Origin: Psychroflexus sp. ALD_RP9
GTDB taxonomy: Bacteria; Bacteroidota; Bacteroidia; Flavobacteriales; Flavobacteriaceae
Assembly (NCBI RefSeq): GCF_017311165.1
Contig: NZ_CP062973.1
Span: 1,984,001 to 2,048,000, forward strand
Reading direction: 5' to 3'
DNA: 64,000 bases
Below, piece by piece: positions 857 to 60,423 of the stretch (the stretch's first letter is position 1; each line of letters opens with the position of its first letter). Below the pieces are notes generated by a model. It worked only from the letters and a program-made list of their open reading frames with translations, was not told the DNA's origin and did no database searches. The position numbers and the translations under genes were made by a program.

Positions 857-986
857 GCTAACGGTTTTGTGTATGGGCTCGTTGCGGAAAATCAGCTATG
901 ATTTTCCGCCGTAACCGAAAGATAGCAAATTGCAATGAATTCCGATTAGGAATTCAGCCGCAATGAACTATACACGTTGTTGTGCG
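857..986 (-). repeat. attC-like site 1
   Basis: Imperfect palindrome. Inner stem GTGTATGGGCTCGTTGCGG pairs with CCGCAATGAACTATACAC. Left outer arm is GCTAAC, right outer arm GTTGTGCG. The two outer arms do not match each other but match the far ends of the neighbouring bodies, as expected of integrated cassettes. Confidence 0.9.
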
Positions 987-1489
987 TTCGTTTTTATTTT
1001 TTTCATTTTTTTTTCAAACACCATATTGTCAATTCCTTTAATTTTTACTCTTAAGATTATATCATCACCTTTTTGTTCAAATTTGAAATTGTATCTGTGT
1101 TGATGTCTTCTGCTTGTCTTAAATTGTCGGAATGTTAAATAGTATTTGTTGTTATATGTAACAAGAAAATCATTTTCTCCATATTCATTAATAATGTCGC
1201 TTTGCTTTTTTCCGTTAAAGATTTCAGTGTAATTCTTTTTGTTAGCAAATATTTCAACTTCATTTGTTGTGAAGATTGATTTTGCGCTAATTCCGAATTC
1301 AATTTTCACTTTTTCTTTGGTCAGTGGACTTTCGGTTTCCACACTAACAATGTTAGAATTCCATAACATCAAAAAATCATTATTCAGTTTCAGAACTATT
1401 AAAAGTCCGATGATTAGAATTCCGATTATTATTAATGTCTTTTTGTTCAAAGTATTGAGGTTTTCGAAATGACGCACAACGGTCTGCAT
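968..1489 (-). CDS. small single-pass membrane protein, function unknown
   Basis: Up to 173 residues. The only ATG (1489) lies inside attC-like site 2, so the N-terminal residues encoded by the site are doubtful; an internal GTG or TTG may be used. One hydrophobic helix (about residues 19-37) is followed by a lysine-rich beta-looking domain. The last residues (AQQRV) and the stop codon come from attC site 1, so the C-terminal tail depends on the recombination site. I recognise no family. Body ends TTGTGCG and CGCACAA pair. Confidence 0.75.
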   Translation of the reverse strand: MQTVVRHFENLNTLNKKTLIIIGILIIGLLIVLKLNNDFLMLWNSNIVSVETESPLTKEKVKIEFGISAKSIFTTNEVEIFANKKNYTEIFNGKKQSDIINEYGENDFLVTYNNKYYLTFRQFKTSRRHQHRYNFKFEQKGDDIILRVKIKGIDNMVFEKKMKKIKTNAQQRV

Positions 1490-1603
1490 ATGGCTTGTGG
1501 CGGTTTCGAAGCACTTTCCTGTCCACCGAAACTAAACCTGGCTACGGAGCGAAAGCCTTGCTGGCAGCCGTTTACCCGCCATAAGCTATATGCGTTGTTG
1601 TGG
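1474..1603 (-). repeat. attC-like site 2
   Basis: Inner stem GCATATGGCTTGTGGCGG / CCGCCATAAGCTATATGC; outer arms GCACAAC and GTTGTGGTG. The ATG of the 968-1489 frame lies in its left arm. Confidence 0.9.
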
Positions 1604-2020
1604 TGTCGTTTTTTTATTTATTGCTTCAATTTCTATTGTTTCAATTCGTCCTAAAATTCCAATCCTTATTAAAAGTCCGATTATCAGAAAAATTGGAAAT
1701 AATATCAATGCTAAACATCCGTAATTCGAACTCCAATAGGTGAATTTATGTCCTTTGAGATTTGGTCGGTCGAAAACAATGGATTTATAATGTTTTCCAA
1801 ACAGATAAATATCCTTGCTTGACCAACCCGTTTCGAATACAGAGTCCAGAAATTTGTCAACTTTCTCTTTATTCTCATCGTTGAATTCAACGTCTCCAAA
1901 CTCGCCTGACCAACCTTCTGTCTTTTTATTCCAATATTGAATGTCGGATACTTTTTTCCATTCGTCATCTGGCCAAATAAAACTCACAATTGTTCCTGTC
2001 CGAATGTGTTTTAAGTCCAA
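1586..2020 (-). CDS. small membrane-anchored protein with doubtful start
   Basis: 144 residues from a TTG at 2020. The soluble N-terminal part is rich in W, D and E, and one membrane helix lies near residues 103-122. The same frame stays open and coding-like for about 30 codons upstream of the TTG until a TAA just after attC-like site 3, with no ATG. Either a rare start is used or the original start was lost. C-terminal QQRI and the stop are supplied by attC site 2. No family recognised. Confidence 0.6.
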   Translation of the reverse strand: MDLKHIRTGTIVSFIWPDDEWKKVSDIQYWNKKTEGWSGEFGDVEFNDENKEKVDKFLDSVFETGWSSKDIYLFGKHYKSIVFDRPNLKGHKFTYWSSNYGCLALILFPIFLIIGLLIRIGILGRIETIEIEAINKKTTPQQRI

Positions 2021-2122
2021 TGTCGGTGAGTCCTGTTGTCCTTTTATTTCAAAGTCTTCAGTAGGTTGAAATTTTTGGTCAATATATTCTTTCCAATTCT
2101 CGATTTCGGTTCTCTTTTAATG

Positions 2123-2259
2123 CACCACAACGGTCTTGGCTATGATGTCGTTGCGGAATCATCCGTTAGGATTATTCCGCTTGGAAACGAAATTACACTT
2201 TTAACTGGAATTTTCAACAGAAAATTCCAAACCGCAATGCATTATAGCCGTTGTTACCA
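2123..2259 (-). repeat. attC-like site 3 (GGCTATGATGTCG class)
   Basis: Inner stem GGCTATGATGTCGTTGCGG / CCGCAATGCATTATAGCC, with a second inner palindrome centred on CATCCG/GGATTATTCC. Eleven sites of this class occur in the window, most attached to ORF-less bodies. Confidence 0.92.
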
Positions 2260-2654
2260 ATAGGTTTTATATTGAGTTTGAGTAAATTTTTTCGTTCTGC
2301 TATTCAATTCCGTCGAGTAGAGCAGAAGTTATTCTATATTAATCTCGATTTAAAAATCTGTTTTCAAGAGTAAATTCATTTGTTTTCAAGCTTGCTATAA
2401 ATTCCGCTGTGTTGATTTTCCGCGTTTTGTTATTCCGCATTTTGGTTTTCAAATCCAGATAGCTGCTAAAGGCTCAACCAAAAATCAATTCCATTTGTTT
2501 TCAAACCAATTCAGTTTTCAGCGTCTGAGTGATAACATCTAATTTTTAAAGATTAATCAAATTTTTTCAATATTATCAGAGTCAATTCCGTTTCTTAGAA
2601 TTATCTAAATATGAATTTTATCTCTAAAAAATCTTTGAAATCAACTTATTGGTA
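2253..2654. other. ORF-less cassette body, family B copy 1
   Basis: About 400 bp without a credible ORF. It carries the family-B landmarks CGTCGAGTAGAGCAGAAG, repeated TGTTTTCAA motifs and GTCTGAGTGATAACATC. Ends TTACCAATA / TATTGGTAA are complementary. Closely related to the bodies at 21331-21728 and 21854-22237. Confidence 0.85.
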
Positions 2655-2780
2655 ACGTTCTTAATAAACGCAGGGCGGCTTCGTCCGTGGTGCTGTAAAG
2701 AAACGAAAGGTTTCTTTGTCCACCGTAAATGCCCAACCGGAGCGGGGTTAAAGCCGACTTGCGTTTATTTGTTGTTGGCC
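2647..2780 (-). repeat. attC-like site 4
   Basis: Divergent class: inner stem TAATAAACGCAGGGCGGCTT / AAGCCGACTTGCGTTTATT. Right arm GTTGTTGGCC is followed at once by the stop codon of the next gene. Confidence 0.85.
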
Positions 2781-3341
2781 TTAGTTTTTATTTTTGTATA
2801 AAATATGATCGTTCTCCTCTCGGTCTTTTTCCTTGTTTCCAATGAAAGATTTTACTTTGTGCAAATTCTTAAAGTCCTTGATGACCAACGCTTGAAGTTC
2901 TTGTCTAAACTGTTTTATTCTGTCACGATGTTGTAGGCCTAGATGTGCTAACTCTGCGTCTACGTTGTCTGATTCTGATAGTTTGTTTTCAATTTCGTTA
3001 ATTAAGTAAACATTAAGTTCGGTTACTTTATTTGAAGTTTCAGGAGAAAGCCAAATAGAATAGTTGATTACTTCAATTATTTCAAAATAGGTCTTGTAGA
3101 AATAATCTTTACCAAGACACATGAACATGGGAGCAAGTCCATCTTCTAGTTGCGACAGTCCTTGAATCCGGTTAATTAGAATCTCTAGTAGTTCGTAAGC
3201 AATCAGTCTTTTTTCAATTACTTTCTTGTAAAAGTCCGTTTTATATTTTTCTCTGTTCAACCAGCGATTTCCAAACAATGTCAATATCGCTGCTAACAAG
3301 GAGCTAGAAAAGAGAAGTGTTATTATTTGGGTCGTGTTCAT
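2781..3341 (-). CDS. N-terminally anchored cytoplasmic-facing protein, unknown
   Basis: 186 residues starting at ATG 3341, nine bases from attC-like site 5. One hydrophobic helix (about residues 6-24) precedes a long, mostly helical, charged domain that ends with a Lys/Glu-rich tail. The layout resembles many small bacterial proteins with an N-terminal anchor and helical bundle, but no named family is recognised. Body ends TTGGCCTTA / TAAGGCCAA pair. Confidence 0.8.
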   Translation of the reverse strand: MNTTQIITLLFSSSLLAAILTLFGNRWLNREKYKTDFYKKVIEKRLIAYELLEILINRIQGLSQLEDGLAPMFMCLGKDYFYKTYFEIIEVINYSIWLSPETSNKVTELNVYLINEIENKLSESDNVDAELAHLGLQHRDRIKQFRQELQALVIKDFKNLHKVKSFIGNKEKDREENDHILYKNKN

Positions 3342-3349
3342 TTCAAATT

Positions 3350-3488
3350 AAGGCCAACGGTTTAGCATATGATTTGTGGCGAAGTTAAAAACCGCTCGCT
3401 TATCGGCTAAACTTATTATTTTCTAAAAATACTAAAATGTTCTAGTTAACCATTTCAATCGCCATAAATTATATGCATTGTTACTTTT
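3350..3488 (-). repeat. attC-like site 5 (AGCATATGATTTG class)
   Basis: Inner stem AGCATATGATTTGTGGCG / CGCCATAAATTATATGC. This class always adjoins family-D ORF-less bodies (sites 5, 44, 52) or the related body after site 46. Confidence 0.9.
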
Positions 3489-3887
3489 CTTTTGCGCCAC
3501 GTCTGAGTAAAAACGAAACACTTTTCCAGTATTGATTTCAGTGTATTTTTTTCAAAAATTTGATTGATAAGATTTCATCTAATTTTAGTCAAATCATTTT
3601 ATTCAGTATCAAATTCAACGCCATGAATTTAATTCAGCTGAAATCTGGGATTGTAAAATGTATTAAAATTTAATCAAATGCTTTTTTCAAAATCCACTTT
3701 AAATTCATTGTGATTTTTTCTCAGTCAATAAAAATTTTGGATAGCTCAAATTTTCATTTAATCAACAGCTTTGGGCAAAAATGATTTCAGATTTTCAGCG
3801 TTTCGCATTTCATTCAGTTGATGCGATGCTAAAACTAAAATTTTTAAGCAAATCTATCAACGTAATTTTTTCGGCGCAATTGAAAGT
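3482..3887. other. ORF-less cassette body, family D copy 1
   Basis: About 400 bp with no credible ORF. Starts TTACTTTTCTTTTGCGCC and ends GGCGCAATTGAAAGTAA, a long complementary pair. Related bodies lie at 38840-39247 and 44686-45094; shared landmarks are CACGTCTGAGTA and TTTCATTCAGTTGA. Confidence 0.85.
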
Positions 3888-4018
3888 AACGGTCTCGTAT
3901 AACCGTCAGTTACGGGTTTATATGCGTTAATTTTCGGTTTAGCACAAGCCTTAGCAATTCCGAGTGGATTCGGACGTAGTCGAATCCGCCGTAATTGCGG
4001 TTATACATTGTTGGCAAC
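3883..4018 (-). repeat. attC-like site 6 (GTATAACCG class)
   Basis: Inner stem GTATAACCGTCAGTTACGG / CCGTAATTGCGGTTATAC with an internal GGATTCGGACGTAGTCGAATCC palindrome. Same class as sites 7, 22 and 64. Confidence 0.92.
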
Positions 4019-4705
4019 AGTTATTTTATTTATTCTTTCACTTTTTATTATTCCAGTCAGTCCGTTTTTTTCTATTTCTGTTAGTAATTTTTCCGAAACA
4101 AAGTAATTAGTATCAATCCGTGTTTTGAAAAAATCTAAACTAGAGTCAAAATTATCATTCAAAACTATGTCTTCGGTATTTACAAATAATTCGTTTTTGT
4201 AATCCATTGGGCTATTGAAACTGATATTTTCTTTGTCGTTAGTAAATGAGTGACCTTTATAAAACACACTATTCTTAAAATCAATCCAAGAGTTTAAAAT
4301 TAAATCCTGAAATAATAAATAATATCTTTCTCTTACAAGTTTTCCCTTATTATCAAAAATCCTTAAAGGAATAAATTTCGAGTATTCTCCAAAATTGAAT
4401 TTTTTAAAAATAGAACGAGTTTTTTCATCAAATACAAAGTGGCAACCAAATAGATGAGGGCTAAAACTTAAAATATTTGTTAAGTATGCTTTTTTTAAGA
4501 GCTGACAATATTCAATTTCAGAGATGTTGTCTATTTTTCTATTCTCTTTAGACTCAAACTCATAGTTATCGTAGAAATTAGAGAGATTGTTGTATTCAGT
4601 TAGATTTTTGAATTTTTTTGGTTTGATTTCACATTGATAAATTCCATTTTTAACACCAATAATTGATGGTTCGCAAGGTAAGGTTATGGGAATGTATCTT
4701 TTCAT
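4001..4705 (-). CDS. 234-residue soluble protein, unknown
   Basis: Starts at ATG 4705 shortly after attC-like site 7, and ends inside site 6 (tail VANNV and stop come from the site). No signal peptide or membrane helix. The protein is rich in F, N, Y and K and has no motif I can assign. Its lone-gene cassette and cytoplasmic nature would fit an immunity-like or accessory protein, but that is speculation. Body ends TTGGCAACA / TGTTGCCAA pair. Confidence 0.8.
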   Translation of the reverse strand: MKRYIPITLPCEPSIIGVKNGIYQCEIKPKKFKNLTEYNNLSNFYDNYEFESKENRKIDNISEIEYCQLLKKAYLTNILSFSPHLFGCHFVFDEKTRSIFKKFNFGEYSKFIPLRIFDNKGKLVRERYYLLFQDLILNSWIDFKNSVFYKGHSFTNDKENISFNSPMDYKNELFVNTEDIVLNDNFDSSLDFFKTRIDTNYFVSEKLLTEIEKNGLTGIIKSERINKITVANNV

Positions 4706-4714
4706 TTCTAATTG

Positions 4715-4848
4715 TTGCCAACGGTCTCGTATAACCGTCAGTTACGGATTTAAAGTTAATAATTTTCGGTTAAGCACTGGCGTTAGCAATTCCGAGTGGA
4801 TTCGGACGTAGTCGAATCCGCCGTAATTGCGGTTATACATTGTTGGCA
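4715..4848 (-). repeat. attC-like site 7 (GTATAACCG class)
   Basis: Near-identical to site 6, flanking the next cassette; left arm GTTGCCAAC, right arm TTGGCAATA. Confidence 0.92.
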
Positions 4849-4855
4849 ATAGTAT

Positions 4856-5404
4856 TTATTTTCCAGCGATTGGATTAATTTCGTTTCTTAATTTTTTTTC
4901 AATTTCACCAACTATTGCTTCGTAATTTTTTATATAATTAAAATCGATATATTTAATTCTAAATTTATGGTTATTTAAGTTTCCCCTTTCCATCAATTTT
5001 AAAGCGGAAGGAGGTTTTCCTAGTGTCGAATTTATATGTTTATCTATTCTATTTGCAATATTTTTAGATTTCCCAATGTATAAAGGAATCCATTCAGCTT
5101 TTTTTCCTAGATGCTTTTCGGTTCTTAAATTGACAATATTTGGAGTCCATTTTTGTAGATACTTATTTTCTATACCTCTAAATTTAAGAGTAAAATCTTT
5201 AATCCATTCATCAAATATGATAGAGTTCATATTGTAAATTTCGAATAAATAAATCCCTTTAATTTTTTTTAATTTTTCTGATTTCTCTTTTAGTTCATCA
5301 AGTTCATTTAGGTCAAATTCACAAAGTAATTCAAAGTTCTCTTTTGTTATTTTCTTTCGTATTAACTCTAATTGAACTGAAATAATATCATCGATTTTTT
5401 TCAT
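4856..5404 (-). CDS. GIY-YIG domain protein
   Basis: 182 residues. A helical N-terminal segment (1-45) precedes a GIY-YIG nuclease-like fold: GIY at residues 50-52, YIG at 109-111, the conserved Arg near 119 (IANRIDKHI), and a C-terminal Glu/Asn region (GEIEKKLRNEINPIAGK). The GIY-to-YIG distance is larger than in the minimal domain because of an insert of about 45 residues. GIY-YIG proteins cut or nick DNA; a role in defence or cassette biology is open. Single gene between attC sites 7 and 8. Confidence 0.8.
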   Translation of the reverse strand: MKKIDDIISVQLELIRKKITKENFELLCEFDLNELDELKEKSEKLKKIKGIYLFEIYNMNSIIFDEWIKDFTLKFRGIENKYLQKWTPNIVNLRTEKHLGKKAEWIPLYIGKSKNIANRIDKHINSTLGKPPSALKLMERGNLNNHKFRIKYIDFNYIKNYEAIVGEIEKKLRNEINPIAGK

Positions 5405-5414
5405 TTTTATATTA

Positions 5415-5552
5415 TTGCCAACGTCTCGCGCATATGGTTTGTGGCGAAGTTAAAAACTGCTCGCCTTTCGGTTTAACTCTTAGTTTCTAAAAATACTAAA
5501 ATTATCGTTCTAGCAAGATTTTCGCCATAAATTATATGCGCTGTTGTAACCA
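5415..5552 (-). repeat. attC-like site 8 (GCGCATATGG class)
   Basis: Inner stem GCATATGGTTTGTGGCGAA / TTCGCCATAAATTATATGC; outer arms TTGCCAAC and TTGTAACCAG. Relatives at sites 25 and 26. Confidence 0.9.
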
Positions 5553-5660
5553 GTTTTTTTCAGTTGATTTCTTAGTCATTTTCCATTAATATCTTTTTTT
5601 TGATGAAGTTCTTAAACATTCTTTTAAACCTATCATTAAATATATCATATTAGAACAGTT

Positions 5661-6164
5661 TTAATTAAAATATATAAGACTTGAAAAGAATAAAACAATT
5701 ACACTCAATATAAATGCGATGCTGGTTAATGTTTTTATTCTTTTTTCATTTGTATTCCAATTTTCAAATTCCTTAAAATATTTTAAATATTGGTCATTTT
5801 TAAATACTGAAAATTAACAAATCAAATATGAAATAATACCAGATGAAATAAAAAAATATTTACTCAAAACTAATTCAGGGAATAATATTTTAGTTATTGT
5901 AATTCCTAATCCAATAAAAATTAGAGAAGTAATTCCAATGAGCCAACCACCGATAAACCATAAACTAAATCCATTTTTTTTATCAGTCCAAAAACCATTA
6001 TACCATTCAGTCGGGTTTTCAATTCCTTCTTTGTCTTTCATTCGTTTTTTAACCGATGGTATTTTAAAGAGTAGTAATGCAGGATTAATTTTATTAAAAA
6101 GAGAATGTAATTTTTTTTCAATCAAATATAGGCTATAATGCAAAATGTTTAAACTTCTTATCAT
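5661..6164 (-). pseudogene. membrane protein gene interrupted by an in-frame stop
   Basis: From ATG 6164 a 116-residue frame with two membrane helices ends at TAA 5814-5816. The same frame then stays open without another stop for 50 more codons (FSVFKNDQYLKYFKEF ...), including a further hydrophobic helix, and closes at TAA 5661-5663. The simplest reading is a nonsense mutation in a longer three-to-four-helix membrane protein; the short form could still be made. A longer frame reaching into attC-like site 9 is an artefact of the site. No family recognised. Confidence 0.6.
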
Positions 6165-6190
6165 TTCAATTTCGAAATTTTTCTCAAATT

Positions 6191-6328
6191 GGTTACAACG
6201 GTTTTGGCTATGGTTTCGTTGCGTGAAAATCCGAGAGGATTTTCCGCCGTGACCCAAAGATAGCAAATTTGCGAGGACTTTCCGAGAGGAAAGTCAGAAG
6301 CAATGAACTATAGCCGATGTTGTGCGTT
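6191..6328 (-). repeat. attC-like site 9
   Basis: Inner stem GGCTATGGTTTCGTTGCGTG / AAGCAATGAACTATAGCC with inner hairpin around GAAAATCC. Relatives at sites 57 and 58. Confidence 0.9.
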
Positions 6329-6333
6329 CGTTT

Positions 6334-6747
6334 TTATTTTTCAACTGTTAGTTCAATTTCATCACAACCAATCCGAATTACTTTTCCATCTTCAAAAAAC
6401 ATTATTAAGTCATCATCTTTTTTCGGTTTCGATTGTGGAATAATTCCATCGTTCATTTCTCTCGAATTGGATGGGAAAAATGTGATTTCTCCAAGTCGTT
6501 CGCTATCTTCTTTCTGTGCTTTTGAGTCTCCTTCTTCATAGTATTCGTATGATATATTTTTAAATTCAAAGTTTATATTTTCAAACTCATCATTTTTCAC
6601 CCAATCACCTTTTGTCTTTTTGAAGTCAAGTGTAATGTTATTTCTATTTTTTGTAATTCCGATGAAGTCAAAATTATTGTGAAGGTCAATGTGTGTTCCG
6701 TTTAATTGAACTGCATAGTTTTCTTCTATTTCAAAATTTGTTTCCAT
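6334..6747 (-). CDS. 137-residue soluble acidic protein, unknown
   Basis: Starts at ATG 6747, 16 bases before attC-like site 10, and ends just after site 9. No signal peptide or membrane helix. It is acidic, with alternating beta-like strands and a central Glu/Lys/Asp-rich loop. No family recognised. Body ends TTGTGCG / CGCACAA pair, the same outer core as the 968-1489 cassette. Confidence 0.8.
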   Translation of the reverse strand: METNFEIEENYAVQLNGTHIDLHNNFDFIGITKNRNNITLDFKKTKGDWVKNDEFENINFEFKNISYEYYEEGDSKAQKEDSERLGEITFFPSNSREMNDGIIPQSKPKKDDDLIMFFEDGKVIRIGCDEIELTVEK

Positions 6748-6762
6748 TCAGGTTTTAAATGA

Positions 6763-6895
6763 CGCACAACGGTCTCGGCTATGAGTAGTTGCGTGGGTTA
6801 GCGCTAAACTTTGCAAGTACACACCAAACTGAAAATTCGCGAGGATTTTCAGAAGTAGGCGAGAACAAGCAATTACTTATAGCCATTGTTGGCAG
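6763..6895 (-). repeat. attC-like site 10 (GGCTATGAGTAG class)
   Basis: Inner stem GGCTATGAGTAGTTGCGTGG / CAAGCAATTACTTATAGCC. The left-arm spacer is GGTCTC against AAT on the right, which shows the strand asymmetry of the sites most clearly. Relatives: 13, 20, 39, 41, 66. Confidence 0.93.
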
Positions 6896-6901
6896 TAGTG
6901 T

Positions 6902-7585
6902 TTATATTTCCGAATTTATTTTCTCACAAAAGTCAAGGAAAAGTTTAAACGATTCTATGTGACTTGTTTCTTGATTTCTGATAATTAAACTTTCTAAATA
7001 ATCTTTATCAACAACACCATTAGGTCTATTTTTCGAATAACGAATATTTCTTTCTCTCAAAAATTCTGTACAATAATCTGCGTGAAATTGAGAATGAGTA
7101 TTAAAGTTTGGATAAACGCCCATTTCTTCTGGGTCACTTGTTTTTACATTATAAAATTGAATATACTTAACAAGATCAGAATTTTGAGGGTTCTGTTTAA
7201 AAACTTTCTGATTTCCCAAAAACCAACTTTCTATGCATCTGTTTTGGGGAATAATTACTAATTCCGTATTAGGATTTAATTCAAGGTTATTTTCTGCTAA
7301 AAACTCATTTACTTCGTTAATTCTGCCATCTACAGTTGATTCATCCACATCAAGAACAAGAACTAAATAATTGAATTTTTTTAATTCGTTTACTTCTTCA
7401 ATAGAATTTTTTAGATGATTGTGAAGTAAAGCAGGGAAACCGTTTCCATTAAATAAAAAATAATTATTATTATCTACTTGATAAGCCCAGTTTACAGGAC
7501 TTAATCTTGGAATAAGATGTGATAACCAAGCAGGATAAACTTTTTTTTCTGTCCTACGTCCTTCTACAATTATGTATAAATTCAT
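6902..7585 (-). CDS. TOPRIM-like / RloB-like protein, partner of the ATPase
   Basis: 227 residues, overlapping the upstream ATPase gene by 4 bp (ATGA), so translation is probably coupled. TOPRIM-like signs: an N-terminal strand with Glu8 (IIVEGRRTEKK), a second strand with Asp79 and Asp81 (LVLVLDVDES), and the segment NRCIESWFLG (115-124), which resembles the NPxFExW motif of RloB/DUF4276-type proteins. TOPRIM proteins paired with ABC/AAA-type ATPases form defence systems such as PARIS and OLD-like pairs. The exact system is not identified. Confidence 0.65.
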   Translation of the reverse strand: MNLYIIVEGRRTEKKVYPAWLSHLIPRLSPVNWAYQVDNNNYFLFNGNGFPALLHNHLKNSIEEVNELKKFNYLVLVLDVDESTVDGRINEVNEFLAENNLELNPNTELVIIPQNRCIESWFLGNQKVFKQNPQNSDLVKYIQFYNVKTSDPEEMGVYPNFNTHSQFHADYCTEFLRERNIRYSKNRPNGVVDKDYLESLIIRNQETSHIESFKLFLDFCEKINSEI

Positions 7586-52556: not shown

Positions 52557-52698
52557 GCATATAACGGTCTTGGCTATGATGTCGTTGCGGAATCATCCGT
52601 TAGGATTATTCCGCTTGAAAACGAAAATACACTTTTAACTGGAATTTTCCATAGAAAATTCCAAACCGCAATGCATTATAGCCGTTGTTGCATACTGG
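52557..52698 (-). repeat. attC-like site 61 (GGCTATGATGTCG class)
   Basis: Inner stem as site 3; right arm GTTGCATACTGG opens a family-C body. Confidence 0.92.
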
Positions 52699-53083
52699 TA
52701 CGACACGCACTGATTAGAACGAAACAATTTTCACGTATCAGATTTTTTTCGCTTTGCTATTTAATTCCGTCGAGTAGAGCAGAAGTTTTGCTATATAAAT
52801 CTAAATCAAAAAAATTTGTTTTCAAGCTTGCTAAAATTCCACTGCGTTGCTTTTCCGCGTTTTGCTGTTCAATTTCAGATGGCTGCTCAATGCTCAACAT
52901 TCGATAAAAGTCAAATTTTTTAGAATTTTGTTTATTCGTTCAGATTCAAAAACTAATTTTCGATCTAAACGTAAATTTCGAATTTTAAAAAGCAACTTTC
53001 AATTCATTTGAGATGATGCTAGATAAATTCAGATTCTCAACTGTCATTTATCCGACCCGAGTTTTTTCCGAGTACTTGTATGC
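52690..53083. other. ORF-less cassette body, family C copy 2
   Basis: About 395 bp, landmarks as copy 1 (TGGTACGACACGCACTGATT, CGAGTTTTTTCCGAGTACTT). A plus-strand frame seen in copy 3 is broken by stops here. Confidence 0.85.
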
Positions 53084-53216
53084 AACGTTCTTGGCTATGA
53101 TGTCGTTGCGGAAAAATCCGCAGGATTCTTTCCGCCGTAGCCGAAAGATAACAAAATTGCGTTGAATTCCGATAAGGAATTCAGCCGCAATGAATTATAG
53201 CCGGTGTTGTGGTGCG
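53077..53216 (-). repeat. attC-like site 62
   Basis: Inner stem GGCTATGATGTCGTTGCGG / CCGCAATGAATTATAGCC, a hybrid-looking site between classes 3 and 50. Confidence 0.9.
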
Positions 53217-53272
53217 TTTTCACTTCCAATTTTATTTTAATATTCACTTAAATATAATTTCTAGTTAAAAAC

Positions 53273-53881
53273 TTATTGAAGAGTTTCTTCTTCTGTATGT
53301 TCTTGAGGAAGTGGAGGAATAGGCATGACATTCCCGAATAGAATATTAAAGTTTGATTCCGTTTCAAGCTTGTCAAATTCATCTGTTAGTTTCATTAGAA
53401 ATTCTTGAATACCGTCCAAGCCTTCATTTCGCTGAGATTCAATAATCACATAATATACGTTTGGATCATTAGTTTTATTAGATCTTTCGTAGTATGCGAG
53501 TTCATTTTTTAATAGATGATCCAGAGAGTCAGTTTTAATTTTTTTGTTAGAATGAAATTTGTTTGGCTTACCTTTTCTAAATGTTATGTAATGTTTCCTT
53601 TCTGTTTGATATGAGGCAGGATTACAGTTTTCAACTGGGTATATATTTTTTACAATTCTTTTCTTTTGTATAACAATTTTCGGGATACTATCATTACAAA
53701 CTATTTCATTTATCCTGTCAACAAAGTTTCCGAAGTTATTAAATTCTGATAGCTTCAAACTTACATTTAGATTATAAGGTTCAGTTTTTAAATACCCATA
53801 ATTTTTCACAGTCTTATTTTCTTTCTTACAACCTGTTAGAAGAAGGACTAATATTAAGTATTTGAAGATATTTAGTTTCAT
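53273..53881 (-). CDS. lipoprotein, unknown
   Basis: Start at ATG 53881 with lipoprotein signal MKLNIFKYLILVLLLTGC (Cys18). About 202 residues. Lys/Asn-rich, helical ends, no recognised domain; the C-terminal tail PIPPLPQEHTEEETLQ is proline- and acid-rich. Single-gene cassette with about 55 bp of 3' non-coding sequence before site 62. Confidence 0.78.
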   Translation of the reverse strand: MKLNIFKYLILVLLLTGCKKENKTVKNYGYLKTEPYNLNVSLKLSEFNNFGNFVDRINEIVCNDSIPKIVIQKKRIVKNIYPVENCNPASYQTERKHYITFRKGKPNKFHSNKKIKTDSLDHLLKNELAYYERSNKTNDPNVYYVIIESQRNEGLDGIQEFLMKLTDEFDKLETESNFNILFGNVMPIPPLPQEHTEEETLQ

Positions 53882-53893
53882 CGCAATTTTAAT

Positions 53894-54035
53894 GCACCAC
53901 AACGGTCTCGTATATCGCTTCGTTGCGGGCAAATTAGCGATTATTTTTCAATTTTGGTTTTTAACTTCTAGAAAATCCCAAAACTCCGATTTCAGCCGAA
54001 AATCCGCAATGAGCGATATGCAGTGTTGCCACCAG
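53894..54035 (-). repeat. attC-like site 63
   Basis: Inner stem GTATATCGCTTCGTTGCGGG / CCGCAATGAGCGATATGC; outer arms GCACCACAAC and GTTGCCACCAG. Confidence 0.9.
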
Positions 54036-54042
54036 TTTTTAA

Positions 54043-54288
54043 TTATGTATCTTTTTTACTTTTAATTCCAAATAAATACCCAATTATGGTACCTAAAATC
54101 CCAAAAGCTGCGGTTAAACTCGTTTGGGGAATATCACTCAAAACAAGAATAGATGCTAGACTTGCAACTAAAGTTATTCCAAAAATTTTGAGATTGTATA
54201 CTCCTATTCCTTTATTCATTTTAGTAAATAAAAGAATGAATGAAATTAATATGATACCAGCTAATATGTAAATAGTTATATTTTTCAT
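54043..54288 (-). CDS. 81-residue membrane protein
   Basis: Two or three membrane helices (about 4-21, 30-48, 55-73) with short loops. Its start overlaps the preceding gene by 4 bp (ATGA), so it is made together with the GYF-domain protein. No family recognised. Confidence 0.78.
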   Translation of the reverse strand: MKNITIYILAGIILISFILLFTKMNKGIGVYNLKIFGITLVASLASILVLSDIPQTSLTAAFGILGTIIGYLFGIKSKKDT

Positions 54289-54887
54289 TTGTTTGCATGT
54301 TTTCTAGTCCATTTTATTAAATAAATCAAATAGTGTATAAATAAAATTACACCAAAAGCTATCGGTAAAACAATTATTGCTTCTTCAAATGCTTCTGAAA
54401 ATAACTCGATAACGACTTCTTTTTTCACATCACCGTAATCCTTGTCAGAAACCGAATAAGAACCATATCCGTTACCATGTCTTGTATATTTAAATTCAGA
54501 AGGAATATAACCTAAAGCTTCTCTAGCATCTGACCAATAAATTTTATCAATTTCAAACATATAGGAAAAGCCTTTGTTATAAATTGAAAAAAATAAAAAT
54601 GCTATCAAAGCAATTATTAATGAGTATTTCAAAAGTCCAAAAATCTTAACAAATTCTGTAGCTATTATAGCTTTTGATAATGATTTAACTTCCGATTTAT
54701 TATTTACAATTTTGTTTTCATAATTAGGTGGTTCAGTTTTAAATTCCTTTAAATCTTCATAAGCTTTCCAATCACTCATACCTTCACACCATATTGGTGT
54801 TTTGTTGTTCAATTCCATTTCATTAATCTCTTTTTTTGATAATGGACCTTTCTTTTTGTCATTCAAAATAATGAAGTATTCTTTCAT
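54285..54887 (-). CDS. GYF_2 (DUF4339)-domain membrane protein
   Basis: 200 residues. The N-terminal 55 residues, YFIILNDKKKGPLSKKEINE with IWCEGMSDWKAYEDL, are a GYF_2/DUF4339 domain, a peptide-binding module. Membrane helices at about 84-105 and 170-190 enclose an extracytoplasmic loop. First gene of a two-gene membrane cassette. Confidence 0.8.
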   Translation of the reverse strand: MKEYFIILNDKKKGPLSKKEINEMELNNKTPIWCEGMSDWKAYEDLKEFKTEPPNYENKIVNNKSEVKSLSKAIIATEFVKIFGLLKYSLIIALIAFLFFSIYNKGFSYMFEIDKIYWSDAREALGYIPSEFKYTRHGNGYGSYSVSDKDYGDVKKEVVIELFSEAFEEAIIVLPIAFGVILFIHYLIYLIKWTRKHANK

Positions 54888-54914
54888 TCTAAGCTGTTTT
54901 ATTTGGGTTTTAAA

Positions 54915-55056
54915 TTGGTGGCAACGTTCTAGTATAACCGTCAGTTACGGGTTAAAGTACGCAAATTTTTCGGTTTAGCACTAACGTTAGCAATTCCGAG
55001 TGGATTCGGACGTAGTCGAATCCGCCGTAATTGCGGTTATACATTGTTACCACACG
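54915..55056 (-). repeat. attC-like site 64 (GTATAACCG class)
   Basis: Stem GTATAACCGTCAGTTACGG / CCGTAATTGCGGTTATAC; relative of sites 6, 7 and 22. Confidence 0.92.
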
Positions 55057-55061
55057 TTTTT

Positions 55062-55688
55062 TTAACATTGATAAAATCCGATTTCAATTGATATTAGATT
55101 TTGGTCAGTCAGATTTTCAACGACCAAAGTCATATCGCAATAAAGTTCGCTTTTAAAATTCAAATAGTATTGATTTTCAGATTTTTCAATTTCATAATCT
55201 TTGTCATTCAATGTCTTTTTTATTAATTCATAGTCCGATTTATGAAACAATTTTTCGGCTATCCATAATGCTTTTTTAAATATTCCATTTTCGTCATTAA
55301 AATTCAGTTCCGATTTGTTTAGAAGCAAATTTCCATAAAATGAAAAGTGGACACAACCACCACGAGTTACGATTAATGTATTTCCGTTGTCAAGTTTTAT
55401 TGTAGCCTTTTTTTTCTCATTATCCCAAACGTAATTTGAAAATTCAGGGATTTCTTTGAGAAAATCATCCGTTTGAGTATTTAAGTCAAAAACACAATCA
55501 TCTTCGCTAAATTCAGATTCAGATTCAGATTCAGATTCAGTTTCTTTTTCTGTTAGATCTGCATTTTCTTGTTTAGGAATCTTTATGTCATTTTTCACTC
55601 CTTTTGCAAAGTCAAACATTTCAATTCCGAAATAAGTAATTCCGATAATTAAAACTGTAATTATTGTTATTATAACTCCTTTTTTCAT
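55062..55688 (-). CDS. N-anchored protein with acidic linker; shares membrane segment with 28830-29219
   Basis: Start at ATG 55688 (MKKGVI). About 208 residues. The membrane helix and following FGIEMFDFAKGVKND match the protein at 28830-29219. Then a Ser/Glu repeat (ESESESESEFSEDD) and a beta-rich domain with CVHFSFYGNLLL. The common start with different domains suggests exchange of gene 5' ends between cassettes. Confidence 0.78.
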   Translation of the reverse strand: MKKGVIITIITVLIIGITYFGIEMFDFAKGVKNDIKIPKQENADLTEKETESESESESEFSEDDCVFDLNTQTDDFLKEIPEFSNYVWDNEKKKATIKLDNGNTLIVTRGGCVHFSFYGNLLLNKSELNFNDENGIFKKALWIAEKLFHKSDYELIKKTLNDKDYEIEKSENQYYLNFKSELYCDMTLVVENLTDQNLISIEIGFYQC

Positions 55689-55703
55689 TGTTTGACTCAA
55701 ATG

Positions 55704-55840
55704 TGTGGTAACGGTCTCGGGTATGCGTAGTGCGGATTTCGATGCACTTATCTTTCAGTTTTCCGTTGGTTTTGTTTTATGTTCATAATTTCGATTTAGT
55801 ACTTCAGCCCGCATTACGTATACCCATTGTTGTGTGCTGC
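55704..55840 (-). repeat. attC-like site 65
   Basis: Inner stem GGGTATGCGTAGTGCGG / CCCGCATTACGTATACCC; outer arms TGTGGTAAC and GTTGTGTGCTGC. Confidence 0.92.
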
Positions 55841-56908
55841 CTTCATTCTTCTGAAATTAGCATCTTCAGGAAAAAAATCATAAAATTCTGTATTCTCTAT
55901 TTTTTGTTCAGATTCATTAAACTCCATTCCAAAATGGAAAAGTATCCAATCGTCAAATATTGGTCGCCCGTCCTTGTCAAATGAATTAGGATAAAAGTCT
56001 TTCTTTTCGTCTACATTACTCAGATACTTGCTTAATCTATCTAAATCTTTCTCCGGTTCAAAAACCATTTTTACTTTGACGTTTACGTGAACGATTACTT
56101 TTATAATTCCGCTTTCATTTTCTTTATGGGCGTAATATTCTTCAATTTCTAAATTTTGGACTTCAAATTCTTCTAGTTTGAAATTTCTTCTTGAATGATA
56201 ATAATATCTGCTTATATGACTCGGAATTGAGTTCTTCTCTCTTTTTAATTCTTTTTTTATAGTTGAAATGGGAATAGATTTGAGTATTAATTCCTTATTT
56301 AAGTTCTCTGACTTGAAGCCATAAACACTTAGAAAACTTGCAATTGAATCGAAAATCTTTAAATTTTCAATTTTTCTTTTAATTCTAATTTTTTCAAAAA
56401 ACTTGTTTTCCTTAAAGATTTTGTCATTTGAAATAAGTACAACTTGTTCATCAGAGTATTTTTCACCGATTTCCAATGTATTTGTCCATATGATAAAATC
56501 TCTTGTGTTGTCTTTTTTAATCTCCTGTTTGTTTTCTATCAGAAAGTCCAACAATTCGTTTTCAGGTAAGAATGGTGTCAAGAAAGGTTTTAGTCGGTTT
56601 TCAGTTAATTTGTTTTTAATAAACTCTATTTGGTCTTCAGCGTATTTTTTCAAGTTTGGCTTTTTCGCTTTACCAAACTTTTCAAGTTTTAATAATTTTG
56701 AATATGCTTGTTCGACTTCATTGATATTTTTTTGAATAATTTCTCTTTCATAATAATCTAAATATTCAAGTAAAACTGCATTAGGTACAATTATTTCTGA
56801 GGCAGAGGAATAGCAATAATCTTGTAAACTGATGTAATCAATCTTATCAAAAAAATTGGGTCCTAATCCACGAAGGATATTTGTATCTAAAATTATTACG
56901 TTAATCAT
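55814..56908 (-). CDS. PIN-domain (DUF4935-like) protein
   Basis: 364 residues, no signal peptide. N-terminal PIN nuclease domain: LDTNI with Asp8, LLEYLDYYE with a conserved Glu, RDFIIWTNTLE and LISNDKIF with later acidic residues near 140-165. A C-terminal domain of about 190 residues with beta strands follows. PIN domains cut RNA; DUF4935-type proteins are often linked to stress or defence. The tail (NNGYT) and stop lie in attC site 65. No antitoxin partner in the cassette. Confidence 0.78.
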   Translation of the reverse strand: MINVIILDTNILRGLGPNFFDKIDYISLQDYCYSSASEIIVPNAVLLEYLDYYEREIIQKNINEVEQAYSKLLKLEKFGKAKKPNLKKYAEDQIEFIKNKLTENRLKPFLTPFLPENELLDFLIENKQEIKKDNTRDFIIWTNTLEIGEKYSDEQVVLISNDKIFKENKFFEKIRIKRKIENLKIFDSIASFLSVYGFKSENLNKELILKSIPISTIKKELKREKNSIPSHISRYYYHSRRNFKLEEFEVQNLEIEEYYAHKENESGIIKVIVHVNVKVKMVFEPEKDLDRLSKYLSNVDEKKDFYPNSFDKDGRPIFDDWILFHFGMEFNESEQKIENTEFYDFFPEDANFRRMKAAHNNGYT

Positions 56909-56916
56909 TTTTCAGG

Positions 56917-57054
56917 TTGCACACAACGGTCTCGGCTATGAACAGTTGCGTGGGTTAGCACGGACTTTTGCAAGTACACGAAAAGCTGAAAATTCAGCAG
57001 GAATTTTCAGGATAAGCCTGTAATAGCAATTGTTTATAGCCATTGTTGTGCAAC
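56917..57054 (-). repeat. attC-like site 66
   Basis: Inner stem GGCTATGAACAGTTGCGTGG / TAGCAATTGTTTATAGCC, a variant of the site-10 class. Confidence 0.92.
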
Positions 57055-57060
57055 GTTTTT

Positions 57061-57672
57061 TTATTTTCTGTTATCTATTACAACTCTAAATTTAGTTGCT
57101 CGTTCTATTTCATTACCATTCGGTTCAATCTGCAAAATATATGTTCCAGCCAAATAATCAACTCCATTTTCTGGAATGTCTTTAATTTCGAGTTTGTCGG
57201 TTTTAATTACATTATCAATTTCATTTCTGTCCAAACTTATTGATTGCCCGTTGATTTTATATTTTCCATAGATGTATTCACTAAATCCGATTGCGTGATT
57301 ATCGAAAATATAAGTTCCGTCTGTTTTAAAGTCGATACTCGTTCCGTTAAAATCTCCGTCATAATATGCCCGAACCAAAGTCGGTTTTTTAAATTCAGAG
57401 TTGTTTTTCCAATTCAGTCCGATAATCAGTCCGATGAATAAAATTCCTATTATTGGTCCAATTAGGAATTGGTTGTTTTTGGTCAACTTATATTTTTTAA
57501 TGTCTTTTGTGGTAGACCAAATCCAATATGTAATTCCAATGAGTGCAATTCCGCCAAATATTATGCCGTCAAACATAAAACTCGAAAATTTGAATTGATA
57601 AATTCGATAAGTTAGGAATAGTCCAATTCCTAAAATTACAATCAATCGTATTATCTGTTTTTTGTCTTTCAC
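57061..57672 (-). CDS. multi-helix membrane protein with C-terminal beta domain
   Basis: Start proposed at GTG 57672 (VKDKKQIIRL); the ATG at 57729 lies in attC-like site 67. About 203 residues. Three helices (about 8-26, 33-53, 68-86) are followed by a small lipocalin-like beta domain (YYDGDFNGTSIDFKTDGTYI, then YGKYKINGQSISLDR). No named family. Confidence 0.7.
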   Translation of the reverse strand: MKDKKQIIRLIVILGIGLFLTYRIYQFKFSSFMFDGIIFGGIALIGITYWIWSTTKDIKKYKLTKNNQFLIGPIIGILFIGLIIGLNWKNNSEFKKPTLVRAYYDGDFNGTSIDFKTDGTYIFDNHAIGFSEYIYGKYKINGQSISLDRNEIDNVIKTDKLEIKDIPENGVDYLAGTYILQIEPNGNEIERATKFRVVIDNRK

Positions 57673-57689
57673 GCGATTTTTCTCAAATG

Positions 57690-57767
57690 TTGCACAACTG
57701 GTGGCGTATAAAATAAGCCAGCGCAACACTGGTTAATTCGGCTTGTTTTATGCGCTGTTGGCTAACG
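57690..57767 (-). repeat. attC-like site 67 (mini, plus-gene class)
   Basis: About 75 bp; nearly identical to site 60 (TGTTGCACAACTGGTGGCG start) but with right arm GTTGGCTAACG. Confidence 0.9.
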
Positions 57768-57805
57768 TTTTTTCAATTCAAATAATAAATCTTAAATTAA
57801 ATTTT

Positions 57806-58126
57806 ATGTGCAAATCAAATAAATATGAATTTTATAAATTCAAAAAAAGATTAAATCAAATTAATTCAGATGACGAAAACTTAATTATATGTTTTCCTGA
57901 AATTCAAATAAACAAAGATCAAATAGAAATTCTTTTGTCTAAGTTTTATGATTGGAATAAAAAAGATATGATTGAATATTTTAAAGGTAAAATTCATAAA
58001 TCAATTTTAATTAGCAGTTCAATTTGCACCAGTAGCGAAGATCAACCAGATTTTCAATATTTATTCGATTTAGGAATACAAGCATTAAACGAAGGGCATT
58101 TATTAAAAAAAAATAATTCAGACTAA
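57806..58126 (+). CDS. 106-residue protein encoded against the array direction
   Basis: Start at ATG 57806 (MCKSNKYEF), chosen over an ATG in site 67. Small cytoplasmic protein with a Cys-containing middle (FPEIQINKDQIEILLSKFYD, ISSSICTSSED). Fills a body with no minus-strand gene and ends 5 bp before site 68. Its leader and attC class are shared with the 52308 gene, not its protein sequence. Confidence 0.7.
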   Translation: MCKSNKYEFYKFKKRLNQINSDDENLIICFPEIQINKDQIEILLSKFYDWNKKDMIEYFKGKIHKSILISSSICTSSEDQPDFQYLFDLGIQALNEGHLLKKNNSD

Positions 58127-58130
58127 ATGT

Positions 58131-58269
58131 TTGCCAACGGTCTTGGCTATGATGTCGTTGCGGAATCATCCGCTAGGATTATTCCGCTTGGAAACGAAAA
58201 TACACTTTAAACTGGAATTTTCCATAGAAAATTCCAAACCGCAATGCATTATAGCCGTTGTTGCATACT
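58131..58269 (-). repeat. attC-like site 68 (GGCTATGATGTCG class)
   Basis: Inner stem as site 3; opens family-C copy 3. Confidence 0.92.
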
Positions 58270-58673
58270 GGTACGACACGCACTGATTGGAACGAAACAA
58301 TTTTCACTTTTCCGTTTTTTTCGCTCTGCTATTAAATTCCGTCGAGTAGAGTAGAAGTTTTGCTATATAAATCTATATAAAAAATGTTTTCAAGAGTGAA
58401 TTCATCTGTTTTCAAGCTTGCTAAAATTCCGCTGCTTTACTTTTCCGCGTTTTGCTATTCAAATACAGATAACTGCTCAGTGCTCAACAATTCGATTAAA
58501 GTCAAATTTTTCAGAATTCTGTTTTATTCGTTCAGATTCAAAAACCAATTTTCGTTTGAAACAGAAATTTCGATTTTAAAAACAGTTTTCAATTCATCTG
58601 AAGTGATGCTTGGTAAATTCAGATTTCCAACTGTCATTTATCCGACCCGAGTTTTTTCCGAGTACTTGTATGC
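58261..58673. other. ORF-less cassette body, family C copy 3
   Basis: About 410 bp; second cassette from the recombinase. Plus-strand frames of up to about 100 codons here are interrupted in the other family copies, so I do not call them genes. Confidence 0.85.
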
Positions 58674-58806
58674 AACGGTCTTGGCTATGATGTCGTTGCG
58701 GAATCATCCGTTAGGATTATTCCGCTTGGAAACGAAATTACACTTTTAACTGGAATTTTCAACAGAAAATTCCAAACCGCAATGCATTATAGCTGTTGTT
58801 GCATAC
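58668..58806 (-). repeat. attC-like site 69 (GGCTATGATGTCG class)
   Basis: The site nearest the recombinase; inner stem as site 3 with one change in the right arm (TATAGCTGTTGTT). Confidence 0.92.
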
Positions 58807-59216
58807 TGGTACGACACGCACTGATTAGAACGAAACAATTTTCACGTTTCCTTTTTTTTCGCTCTGCTATTAAATTCCGTCGAGTAGAGCAGAAGTTATT
58901 TTATATTAATCTGGATTTAAAAAACTGTTTTCAAGAGTGAATTCATCTGTTTTCAAGCTTGCTAAAATTTCACTGCGTTGCTTTTCCGCGTTTTGCTGTT
59001 CAATTTTAGATGGCTGCTCAATGCTAAACATTCGATAAAAGTCAAATTTTTTAGAATTTTGTTTATTAGTTCAGATTCAAAAACTAATTTTCGTTTGAAA
59101 CGGAATTTTCGAATTTTAAAAAGCAGTTTTCGATTCATTTGAGATGATGCTAGATAAATTCAGATTCTCAACTATCATTTATCCGACCCGAGTTTTTTCC
59201 GAGTACTTGTATGCAA
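58800..59216. other. ORF-less cassette body, family C copy 4 (first in array)
   Basis: About 415 bp, adjacent to the presumed attI. By integron logic it would be among the latest insertions. Body ends TTGCATAC / GTATGCAA pair. Confidence 0.85.
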
Positions 59217-59244
59217 CTCGTTATATAAATTCAAATATACACTT
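59208..59244 (-). other. presumed attI (array insertion point)
   Basis: The last cassette body ends TGTATGCAA at 59216. It is followed not by an attC but by a short AT-rich stretch (CTCGTTATATAAATTC) before the recombinase stop. On the minus strand the junction reads TATAACGAGTTGCATAC, keeping the G/TT crossover. No palindrome of attC size is present. Confidence 0.7.
59232..59239 (-). promoter_or_regulatory. -7-like box between recombinase and attI (possible cassette promoter)
   Basis: TATATTTG on the minus strand fits TAnnTTTG and would start transcription about 8 bp before attI, toward the cassettes. No TTG is present at the right -33 distance, so this is tentative. Confidence 0.35.
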
Positions 59245-60423
59245 TTATTTGTTCTTGTTCCGGGATAACAGCGTATGCGTGTCACGTTTATCAAGTTGAT
59301 TGTATTTATGAATGGCTTGATCTAAAGGATTGGTAATTTCACTTAACTTACGCTCACTTACATGGGTGTAAATCATCGTCGTTTCTGGCCTTGAATGTCC
59401 TAATAATTCTTGTATGTATCTAACATCTACGCCGTTTTCTAGTAAGTGCGTGGCAAAACTGTGTCTTAGCGTATGAGGCGTTACTCGTTTTTTTATGCCT
59501 GCCGCCTTGCAACTTCGTCGCAAAAATTGCCTTATAGAACTAGCACTGTATGCCTTACCCGACTCATCTCCTTCAAATAAATATAATTTAGGTTTATAAG
59601 TTTGTGCATAATTAATTAACATCGGCTTTATGCGTTCTCCTAAATCACACACTCGATCTTTTCGGCCTTTACCACTTCTAATATGTATGGTGTTTCGCTC
59701 TAAATCTAAATCACTAATGTGTAAATTAATTAATTCGCCTATGCGTAAGCCTGAAGAATAAATTAAACCAATAATAGCACGATGTTTTAAGTTTCGTGTA
59801 ACTCTAATTAGTTCAACCACTTCAGTAGCCGATAGTACAACTGGTAATTTTTTGTCTTTTTTAGGTAAATGTAATTCAGAAGCGTCAAAAGTCATCCCTA
59901 AATTAAGCTGACTAAAATGCTTAAAGGCACTTATGCATTGCCGATGAGAGCTGACACTATAGCCACCTTTAGCAATTACTTCTTCCATAAAAACTTCAAT
60001 AGATCTTCTATTGATACGGTCTAAACTTTTACTGGCATAATAACTTAAAAAACGCTGAATAAAATTAGTGTACGTATGCACGGTCGATTCACTCTTACGA
60101 TGACCAATTAAGTAATTTTTAAAAGCAGTATAAGCGGCTTGATGTGATTGAGGTAAAGTTTCAAACTTCAATAAAGCATGCTTTACAGGCACTTTTTTGG
60201 GCATAGCCGAATAGTCTACATAACACTTTATTGAGCGTAATTGTAAATATAATTGCTGTTTGGCTTTGGTTGTATTTTGAATATAAAAACACCGATGGGT
60301 TTGCGTCCAACGGGCACCAACTTTTTTTATAGTCGCCTTAATTAATTCGTCAAATGTAAAATGAATAGCTACACAATCTTTACCGCGATGTCTTAAAGGT
60401 TTTAATATCACTTGTTTATCCAT
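59245..60423 (-). CDS. Xer-like tyrosine recombinase of the cassette array
   Basis: 392 residues. An N-terminal extension of about 75 residues (RHRGKDCVAIHFTFDELIKA) of a type seen in Bacteroidota integrases, a SAM-like core-binding domain (about 90-175) and a catalytic domain follow. Catalytic residues: Arg227 (SSGLRIGE), Lys252 (GKGRKDR), His317 and Arg320 (PHTLRHSFATHLLE), His343 (LGHS), Tyr352 (MIYTH). The region between LYLFEG and SASSIRQF is short, so the extra helix segment that marks integron IntI is absent. Transcribed toward the array. It probably moves cassettes, but that is inferred from position. Confidence 0.9.
   Translation of the reverse strand: MDKQVILKPLRHRGKDCVAIHFTFDELIKATIKKVGARWTQTHRCFYIQNTTKAKQQLYLQLRSIKCYVDYSAMPKKVPVKHALLKFETLPQSHQAAYTAFKNYLIGHRKSESTVHTYTNFIQRFLSYYASKSLDRINRRSIEVFMEEVIAKGGYSVSSHRQCISAFKHFSQLNLGMTFDASELHLPKKDKKLPVVLSATEVVELIRVTRNLKHRAIIGLIYSSGLRIGELINLHISDLDLERNTIHIRSGKGRKDRVCDLGERIKPMLINYAQTYKPKLYLFEGDESGKAYSASSIRQFLRRSCKAAGIKKRVTPHTLRHSFATHLLENGVDVRYIQELLGHSRPETTMIYTHVSERKLSEITNPLDQAIHKYNQLDKRDTHTLLSRNKNK

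Follow-up and report, generated by a model that had tools for sequence, protein, structure and literature searches.

The window analysed here, a stretch of 64,000 nucleotides (nt), covers bases 1984001-2048000 of the 2.56-Mb single-contig genome of a Psychroflexus strain (Flavobacteriaceae). Between positions 860 and 58800 it carries 68 folded sites, all on one strand and in one orientation, each of which closes one cassette body, and the array ends at a gene encoding a tyrosine recombinase. An initial annotation of this DNA had described 69 structured sites in a single orientation that stop at such a gene. The sites were recovered as structured but number 68 on counting; their orientation was the same in 68 of 68 cases, and the recombinase gene (59245-60423) adjoins the first body. 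The features of the locus are as follows.

59245..60423, minus strand: tyrosine recombinase, 392 residues
59215..59250, minus strand: putative attI-like first junction
860..59217, minus strand: cassette array in the window, 68 bodies and 68 sites, continuing left to genome position 1965998
58674..58800, minus strand: folded site 1
58136..58262, minus strand: folded site 2
57696..57759, minus strand: folded site 3 (short)
56925..57047, minus strand: folded site 4
55710..55831, minus strand: folded site 5
54923..55048, minus strand: folded site 6
53901..54027, minus strand: folded site 7
53084..53208, minus strand: folded site 8
52563..52689, minus strand: folded site 9
52199..52262, minus strand: folded site 10 (short)
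50663..50785, minus strand: folded site 11
49491..49612, minus strand: folded site 12
48319..48440, minus strand: folded site 13
47767..47893, minus strand: folded site 14
47126..47254, minus strand: folded site 15
46006..46066, minus strand: folded site 16 (short)
45095..45217, minus strand: folded site 17
44560..44685, minus strand: folded site 18
43595..43718, minus strand: folded site 19
42891..43015, minus strand: folded site 20
42175..42297, minus strand: folded site 21
41333..41521, minus strand: folded site 22 (long)
40526..40652, minus strand: folded site 23
39954..40079, minus strand: folded site 24
39248..39374, minus strand: folded site 25
38716..38840, minus strand: folded site 26
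37855..37979, minus strand: folded site 27
37104..37227, minus strand: folded site 28
36220..36341, minus strand: folded site 29
35243..35366, minus strand: folded site 30
34490..34612, minus strand: folded site 31
33212..33338, minus strand: folded site 32
30487..30613, minus strand: folded site 33
29953..30078, minus strand: folded site 34
29241..29367, minus strand: folded site 35
28688..28812, minus strand: folded site 36
28101..28225, minus strand: folded site 37
27318..27443, minus strand: folded site 38
26355..26477, minus strand: folded site 39
25592..25715, minus strand: folded site 40
24804..24929, minus strand: folded site 41
24042..24167, minus strand: folded site 42
23512..23640, minus strand: folded site 43
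22847..22972, minus strand: folded site 44
22237..22364, minus strand: folded site 45
21729..21855, minus strand: folded site 46
21203..21329, minus strand: folded site 47
20474..20599, minus strand: folded site 48
19736..19924, minus strand: folded site 49 (long)
18632..18754, minus strand: folded site 50
17483..17609, minus strand: folded site 51
15824..16011, minus strand: folded site 52 (long)
15046..15174, minus strand: folded site 53
12265..12386, minus strand: folded site 54
11559..11685, minus strand: folded site 55
9889..10011, minus strand: folded site 56
9337..9463, minus strand: folded site 57
8805..8930, minus strand: folded site 58
6768..6890, minus strand: folded site 59
6197..6321, minus strand: folded site 60
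5420..5545, minus strand: folded site 61
4720..4844, minus strand: folded site 62
3888..4012, minus strand: folded site 63
3356..3482, minus strand: folded site 64
2654..2776, minus strand: folded site 65
2129..2255, minus strand: folded site 66
1478..1599, minus strand: folded site 67
860..981, minus strand: folded site 68

Read on the minus strand, a site shows AACA-nnG followed by a stem; a variable middle separates this stem from its partner, and a longer spacer then leads to GTT, which is preceded by CC in 50 of the 68 sites. The length is 122-129 nt in 62 sites, 61-64 nt in three and 188-189 nt in another three; six chance pairs from the first site scan, whose flanks did not match, were discarded by hand. 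An alignment of 60 of the 68 sites, with shuffles as control, comprises 14 stem pairs, 11 of which vary on both sides. In this alignment 95.7% of the stem cells are paired versus 67.0% in the shuffles, and the covariation score is 0.648 versus 0.133, in agreement with the conserved inner stems noted in the initial annotation. The frame AACGG...GTTGTT given there is not diagnostic, as it was matched once with 30-60 bases between its halves versus 0.67 matches expected.

A covariance model built from the 60 sites (R1) yielded 84 matches in the whole genome at E 0.01, 82 of which belong to one array at genome positions 1965998-2042800. Each of the 63 matches inside the window coincides with one of the 68 sites and no other match was obtained there; the five sites missed are the three short ones, one long one and the site at 2654-2776. 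Twenty further sites lie to the left of the window, so that the array reaches genome position 1965998 and contains at least 88 sites. No Rfam family was found for the sites at the gathering threshold or at E 0.1.

The recombinase is composed of an N-terminal beta-alpha domain (about residues 1-90), a core-binding domain and a catalytic domain. Residues R227, K252, H317, R320, H343 and Y352, which we take to be its catalytic residues, are unchanged across 40 aligned homologues. The best family is XerA (NF040815, 230 bits versus a cut-off of 220). The comparison with an IntI profile proposed in the initial annotation did not score the enzyme as a true IntI, since it reached 208.1 bits versus a cut-off of 265 with the NCBIfam integron-integrase profile TIGR02249, with a match in two stretches. 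At the insert of IntI (I2 helix, around patch III), the window enzyme and nine other array-type enzymes shown have a gap of about 31 columns, whereas these columns are filled in five of five IntI shown. The description as a Xer-like, non-IntI enzyme is therefore upheld. Modelled alone, the N-terminal domain was poorly predicted (mean predicted local distance difference test score 38.5).

The GTT of the first cassette is located 27 nt past the recombinase stop codon. The segment before this GTT is common to two other Psychroflexus genomes and is partly shared by arrays with a second form of the recombinase. Elsewhere, a longer recombinase of about 600 residues is encoded ahead of sites of this kind (G010:C1:1034873-1035751, G011:C1:413745-414590). 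Upstream of the window recombinase there are six TGTACA palindromes (about 60745-60882), five of them spaced by 22 nt; such a density is absent in nine relatives, which have none or one copy in 700 nt. Furthermore, a decayed second tRNA-Arg start and upstream leader (about 61340-61440) precede the intact tRNA-Arg gene at 61210-61284, suggestive of former use of this gene by an element.

The repeating unit of the array can be written as GTT-N6...body...N6'-AAC with the hairpin site after it, the bodies being 300-2659 nt long. The six bases following GTT (N6) are the reverse complement of the six bases preceding AAC (N6') at all six positions in 62 of the 68 bodies and at five in the remaining six, while 2000 permutations of the window set gave a maximum of six perfect bodies. 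The complementary body ends claimed earlier are thus confirmed far above permutation level. Neighbours across one site match at 2.33 of six positions versus 2.07 for random pairs in the window. N6 begins with a purine in every window body and takes the form of 50 different six-mers. All 68 starts have A at position 8, which is complementary in none of them, and positions 9-11 are again complementary in 87-94%. Of 123 bodies from 12 further genomes or records, 99 were perfect, 15 had one mismatch and nine had more; position 8 was A in 123 of 123, with a partner reading G in 116. A third set (L009 and L191-L210) comprised 117 perfect bodies among 135, eight with one mismatch and ten with more, which amounts to 216 of 258 perfect bodies for the two sets outside the window. 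Among 83 homologous cassette pairs, 85 of 89 changed start positions were compensated at the far end and four were uncompensated, and eight positions were altered at the end only; these pairs derive from 16 clusters, six of them with more than one N6, and are not independent.

According to folding with DNA energies, 59 of 65 outer stems are more stable on the bottom strand, i.e. the complement of the array reading direction; the same strand is favoured in 105 of 300 random windows. Stem mismatches in the 60 aligned sites that read A.C on the top strand and G.T on the bottom strand were counted 117 times, the reverse once and other mismatches 23 times, and position 8 of the arm obeys the same rule. 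When a site was folded with the two ends of its own cassette around it (circle form), the bottom strand was predicted to be more stable than the top strand for 64 of 65 sites; its predicted stability also exceeded that of the array form for 61 of 65, with a mean gain of 7.4 kcal/mol.

R1 sites were detected in 44 of 60 relatives, including 27 of 27 genomes of the genus (own genome included). Among 23 recombinase loci, again including our own, ten are followed directly on the 3' side by a same-strand site and 13 have none at E 0.1; in eight of these 13, the contig ends less than 700 nt past the gene. A broader site model (R2) matched 269 of 395 genomes in a sample of the class, and a recombinase query at E 1e-55 matched 161. 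Both were found in 148 genomes, sites only in 121, the recombinase only in 13 and neither in 113, corresponding to an odds ratio of 10.6 uncorrected for kinship. Among the matches listed there are at least 36 pairs of site and recombinase within 100 kb on one contig, from 22 genomes (own genome included, with five pairs). All 36 pairs are on the same strand, and in 35 the site is 3' of the gene.

Twenty loci surrounding listed recombinases were then analysed, roughly half of which had been picked for a site already listed on the contig; all of the 100 R2 matches there were on the recombinase strand and 99 were 3' of the gene. A scan for the end rule that is blind to hairpins detected 74 units on the recombinase strand (73 of them 3') and none on the other strand; shuffles gave about one unit in all, and two of the 20 loci had none. 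Plasmids of Chryseobacterium, Pontibacter and Rufibacter have the same layout, with four clear, one weak and no R1 sites and with one, one and three end-rule units, respectively. In the phylum sample R2 matched 144 of 296 genomes at E 1e-6. Since 91 of these are outside the class, the sites are not confined to Bacteroidia. The covariance-model search proposed in the initial annotation has thus met the same site class across Bacteroidota, often beside a recombinase. As side observations, a 4.3-Mb genome of the same genus (G025) has 60 sites in small scattered groups and no single array, and genes for IS110-family transposases are located past the plasmid recombinases (L120, L121, L122), together with a group II intron gene in Chryseobacterium. 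IS110-family transposases and group II introns target attC in integrons.

Several cassettes are shared between genomes or repeated within the array. The bodies concerned are:

26478..27320, minus strand: body c38, metallophosphoesterase; a cassette on the Chryseobacterium plasmid is 85.2% identical
34613..35245, minus strand: body c30, ParE-type family gene plus a neighbour; homologues of full length in two other Psychroflexus genomes
48441..49493, minus strand: body c12, 100% identical to c11
49613..50665, minus strand: body c11, glycosyltransferase, tandem copy

The identity of c38 to the plasmid cassette extends over 842 of 843 bases from GTT to AAC between unrelated flanks; its N6 differs from the plasmid copy by one compensated and one uncompensated change. 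Body c30 is over its whole length 86.3% identical to a homologue in G011 and 74.1% to one in G005, with differing flanks. Bodies c13 and c56, which lie far apart in the array, are 97.4% alike. The cargo scan covered 25 proteins, of which 20 were compared with Pfam and ten with PADLOC. It revealed two restriction-modification pairs, an AbiEii-type AAA ATPase, a ParE-type gene, a pair of HTH and Gp49 proteins, a glycosyltransferase, a beta-lactamase-fold protein with TPR, a metallophosphoesterase and a PIN-domain protein. No Pfam match at E 0.001 was obtained for 11 of the 20 proteins. Two recurring cassette families of about 400 nt (c00, c01, c08, c33 and c42, c45, c46, c65) show no clear gene on their strand; promoters or RNAs may be their cargo.

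We consider it quite likely that this array of at least 88 sites is run in the manner of an integron by the adjoining XerA-like recombinase, which lacks the I2 insert and would act on folded single-stranded sites. As far as the sequence indicates, the enzyme likely captures and shuffles cassettes as an integron would; the inference of an integron-like capture system in the initial annotation is supported by the enzyme profile, the insert gap, the cores and the linkage. The recombinase would cut at GTT/AAC and the unit would leave in circular form, with its bottom strand folded at the site. In the circle N6 would pair with N6', thereby completing a binding arm beside the GTT/AAC crossover. The hairpins presumably form in the cell with the bottom strand as substrate. 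The bottom strand would be the one used because its G.T wobbles keep pairing where the top strand has A.C mismatches. The recombinase may then join the folded site to the attI-like point just after its own gene, where new units would enter. In the array, the arm would set N6' of one cassette against the unmatched N6 of the next, presumably a poor substrate; since entry into the array disrupts the arm anew, the balance would tip towards insertion and away from loss. The N-terminal domain may do part of the job of the I2 insert in IntI.

The complementary ends might instead serve within the array, where pairing of N6 with N6' across the body would bring the flanking sites together for excision. 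Such pairing predicts the same covariation of the ends and is compatible with the near-random match across sites (2.33 versus 2.07 of six), but it would have to close a loop as long as the body (300-2659 nt), and we regard it as rather unlikely. Less probable still is a true integron with a degenerate IntI-derived enzyme that has lost its insert and with divergent attC as sites. In a quick tree, in which array enzymes and IntI are neighbours and which gave long-branch warnings, 15 IntI rows (13 of them different) form one clade (100), and 33 homologues labelled as array enzymes, a site beside the gene being shown for part of them, fall outside it (86), which disfavours loss from within IntI. 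XerA as the top family at 230 bits argues against a degenerate IntI as well. The attC cores RYYYAAC and GTTRRRY occur together in none of the 68 sites and each alone in five, which speaks against divergent attC and bears out the earlier statement that the cores are only AAC/GTT. Furthermore, R2 had no match at E 1 in 31 stretches around 30 IntI genes (559 kb; 28 sample genomes and two plasmids, the IntI locus L108, for which sites were already known, lying outside the set), and 11 of the 28 genomes have sites elsewhere. The neighbourhood of the array enzymes and IntI in the quick tree suggests that the relation to integrons may be closer than mere resemblance.

That the sites are dispersed hairpin repeats, similar to repetitive extragenic palindromes or miniature inverted-repeat transposable elements, which were inserted between genes beside an unrelated recombinase, seems very improbable. 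Their presence in 269 of 395 class genomes, 121 of them without a detected recombinase, and the two of 84 matches in the own genome that fall outside the array would fit a repeat family. However, repeat insertion would yield neither complementary body ends nor the joint change of both ends, the nearly fixed strand and side relative to the recombinase speak against an unrelated neighbour, and the interspecies homology of c38 and c30 covers the body from GTT to AAC, with different flanks. We give hardly any credence to modules hitch-hiking on dif sites of XerC/D type in place of folded-site cassettes. The recombinase is indeed Xer-like, but dif is of the short palindrome type and the array sites are hairpins of 61-189 nt in one orientation; other XerC/D-like genes are found elsewhere in the own genome, which also argues against dif modules.

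Several observations weigh against the reading of an integron-like system run by the XerA-like enzyme. In G064 four sites are located 3.7-6.4 kb before a true IntI gene and no XerA-like enzyme is near; the E values are strong for two of these sites (6e-11, 1e-9) and weak for the others (0.003, 0.07). The corresponding feature row is:

L108:3840-6503 and L108:10232-11332 (genome of another class): four sites before a true IntI

No recombinase was found at E 1e-55 in 121 of the 269 site-bearing class genomes, which may therefore reflect movement in trans, diverged enzymes or relics. Wide occurrence of the sites without a linked recombinase had been named in the initial annotation as evidence against its reading; the sites are indeed wide (269 of 395), but the listed pairs are linked on one strand (36 of 36) despite these 121 genomes. 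When whole sites are folded, the bottom strand is the better one in 56 of 68 only, with two equal. All folding, and hence the use of the strand, is predicted, and excision and insertion are what we infer. The putative attI-like segment is suggested by its position and partial conservation. Of the 326 bodies in all three sets, 19 agree at four or fewer of the six positions.

Moreover, complementary ends alone do not distinguish the array from true integrons. In a Thiodictyon plasmid with five attC the four bodies match at 5, 6, 4 and 5 of six positions, one extending to 12, and because of this control, which makes us slightly less confident in the main and the boldest reading, complementary ends as such are not a novelty of these cassettes. 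Strict attC scans beside IntI genes gave few further sites (three in L136, two in L106 and some singles alike on both strands). More than the matching itself, it is the absence of the RYYY/RRRY core and the mismatch across sites that set these cassettes apart.

The I2 helix is regarded as an innovation for single-strand recombination that is absent from Xer, and its acquisition is considered the step by which integrons passed from double- to single-strand recombination (PMC7790495). If the system described here is active, an I2-free enzyme family found beside folded cassette arrays makes the requirements of single-strand cassette recombination directly testable. It would also represent a large unexamined reservoir of mobile genes, including restriction-modification and toxin-antitoxin-like cargo, and the arrangement recurs in other Bacteroidota. 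Such arrays are not described in the available parts of PMC9024848, PMC8618304, PMC9668308, PMC8138268, PMC2727003, PMC3607928 and PMC7790495, and we found no description among the search results listed from an open-access library, preprints being outside the scope. Among these articles, PMC8618304 treats integron distribution and PMC8138268 recombinase classes, and a survey of complete genomes gives one complete integron within Bacteroidetes proper, in Salinibacter (PMC9024848). In our samples no IntI over the cut-off was found in the own genome, family or order. Among the 296 genomes of the phylum sample, 84 encode an IntI that passes it; a single one of these belongs to the own class, and R2 sites are present as well in 33 of the 84.

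We class the system as integron-like in its presumed working and nevertheless not as an integron, because three defining features were not found on test. We lean somewhat towards a second, I2-free kind of integron that is Bacteroidota-wide and present on plasmids, in which a six-base lock in each cassette favours capture over loss and G.T wobbles, not extrahelical bases, mark the strand. As in a sedentary chromosomal integron, a tyrosine recombinase lies beside a one-directional array of short cassettes with a folded site each, the unit boundaries are AAC/GTT, the bottom strand is predicted to fold better and the cargo includes toxin-antitoxin-like and defence functions. Unlike it, the array enzyme is without the IntI insert and the pair RYYYAAC/GTTRRRY is found in none of the 68 array sites. 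In attC of integrons the choice of strand is set by extrahelical bases (PMC2727003), whereas the array sites have G.T wobbles, at conserved A.C/G.T positions. Four control bodies do not suffice to show that the six-base arm exceeds that of standard cassettes in length.

The recombinase gene is read in the cassette direction as in the Treponema integron, where the gene is also read toward attI but is intI (PMC3607928). Archaeal integrons likewise combine an array, folded sites and a putative attI immediately downstream of the integrase gene, but their IntI carry the additional domain (PMC9668308). Compared with the XerA family (NF040815; PDB 5hxy, 4a8e), the array enzyme adds an N-terminal domain of about 90 residues and the linkage to a cassette array.

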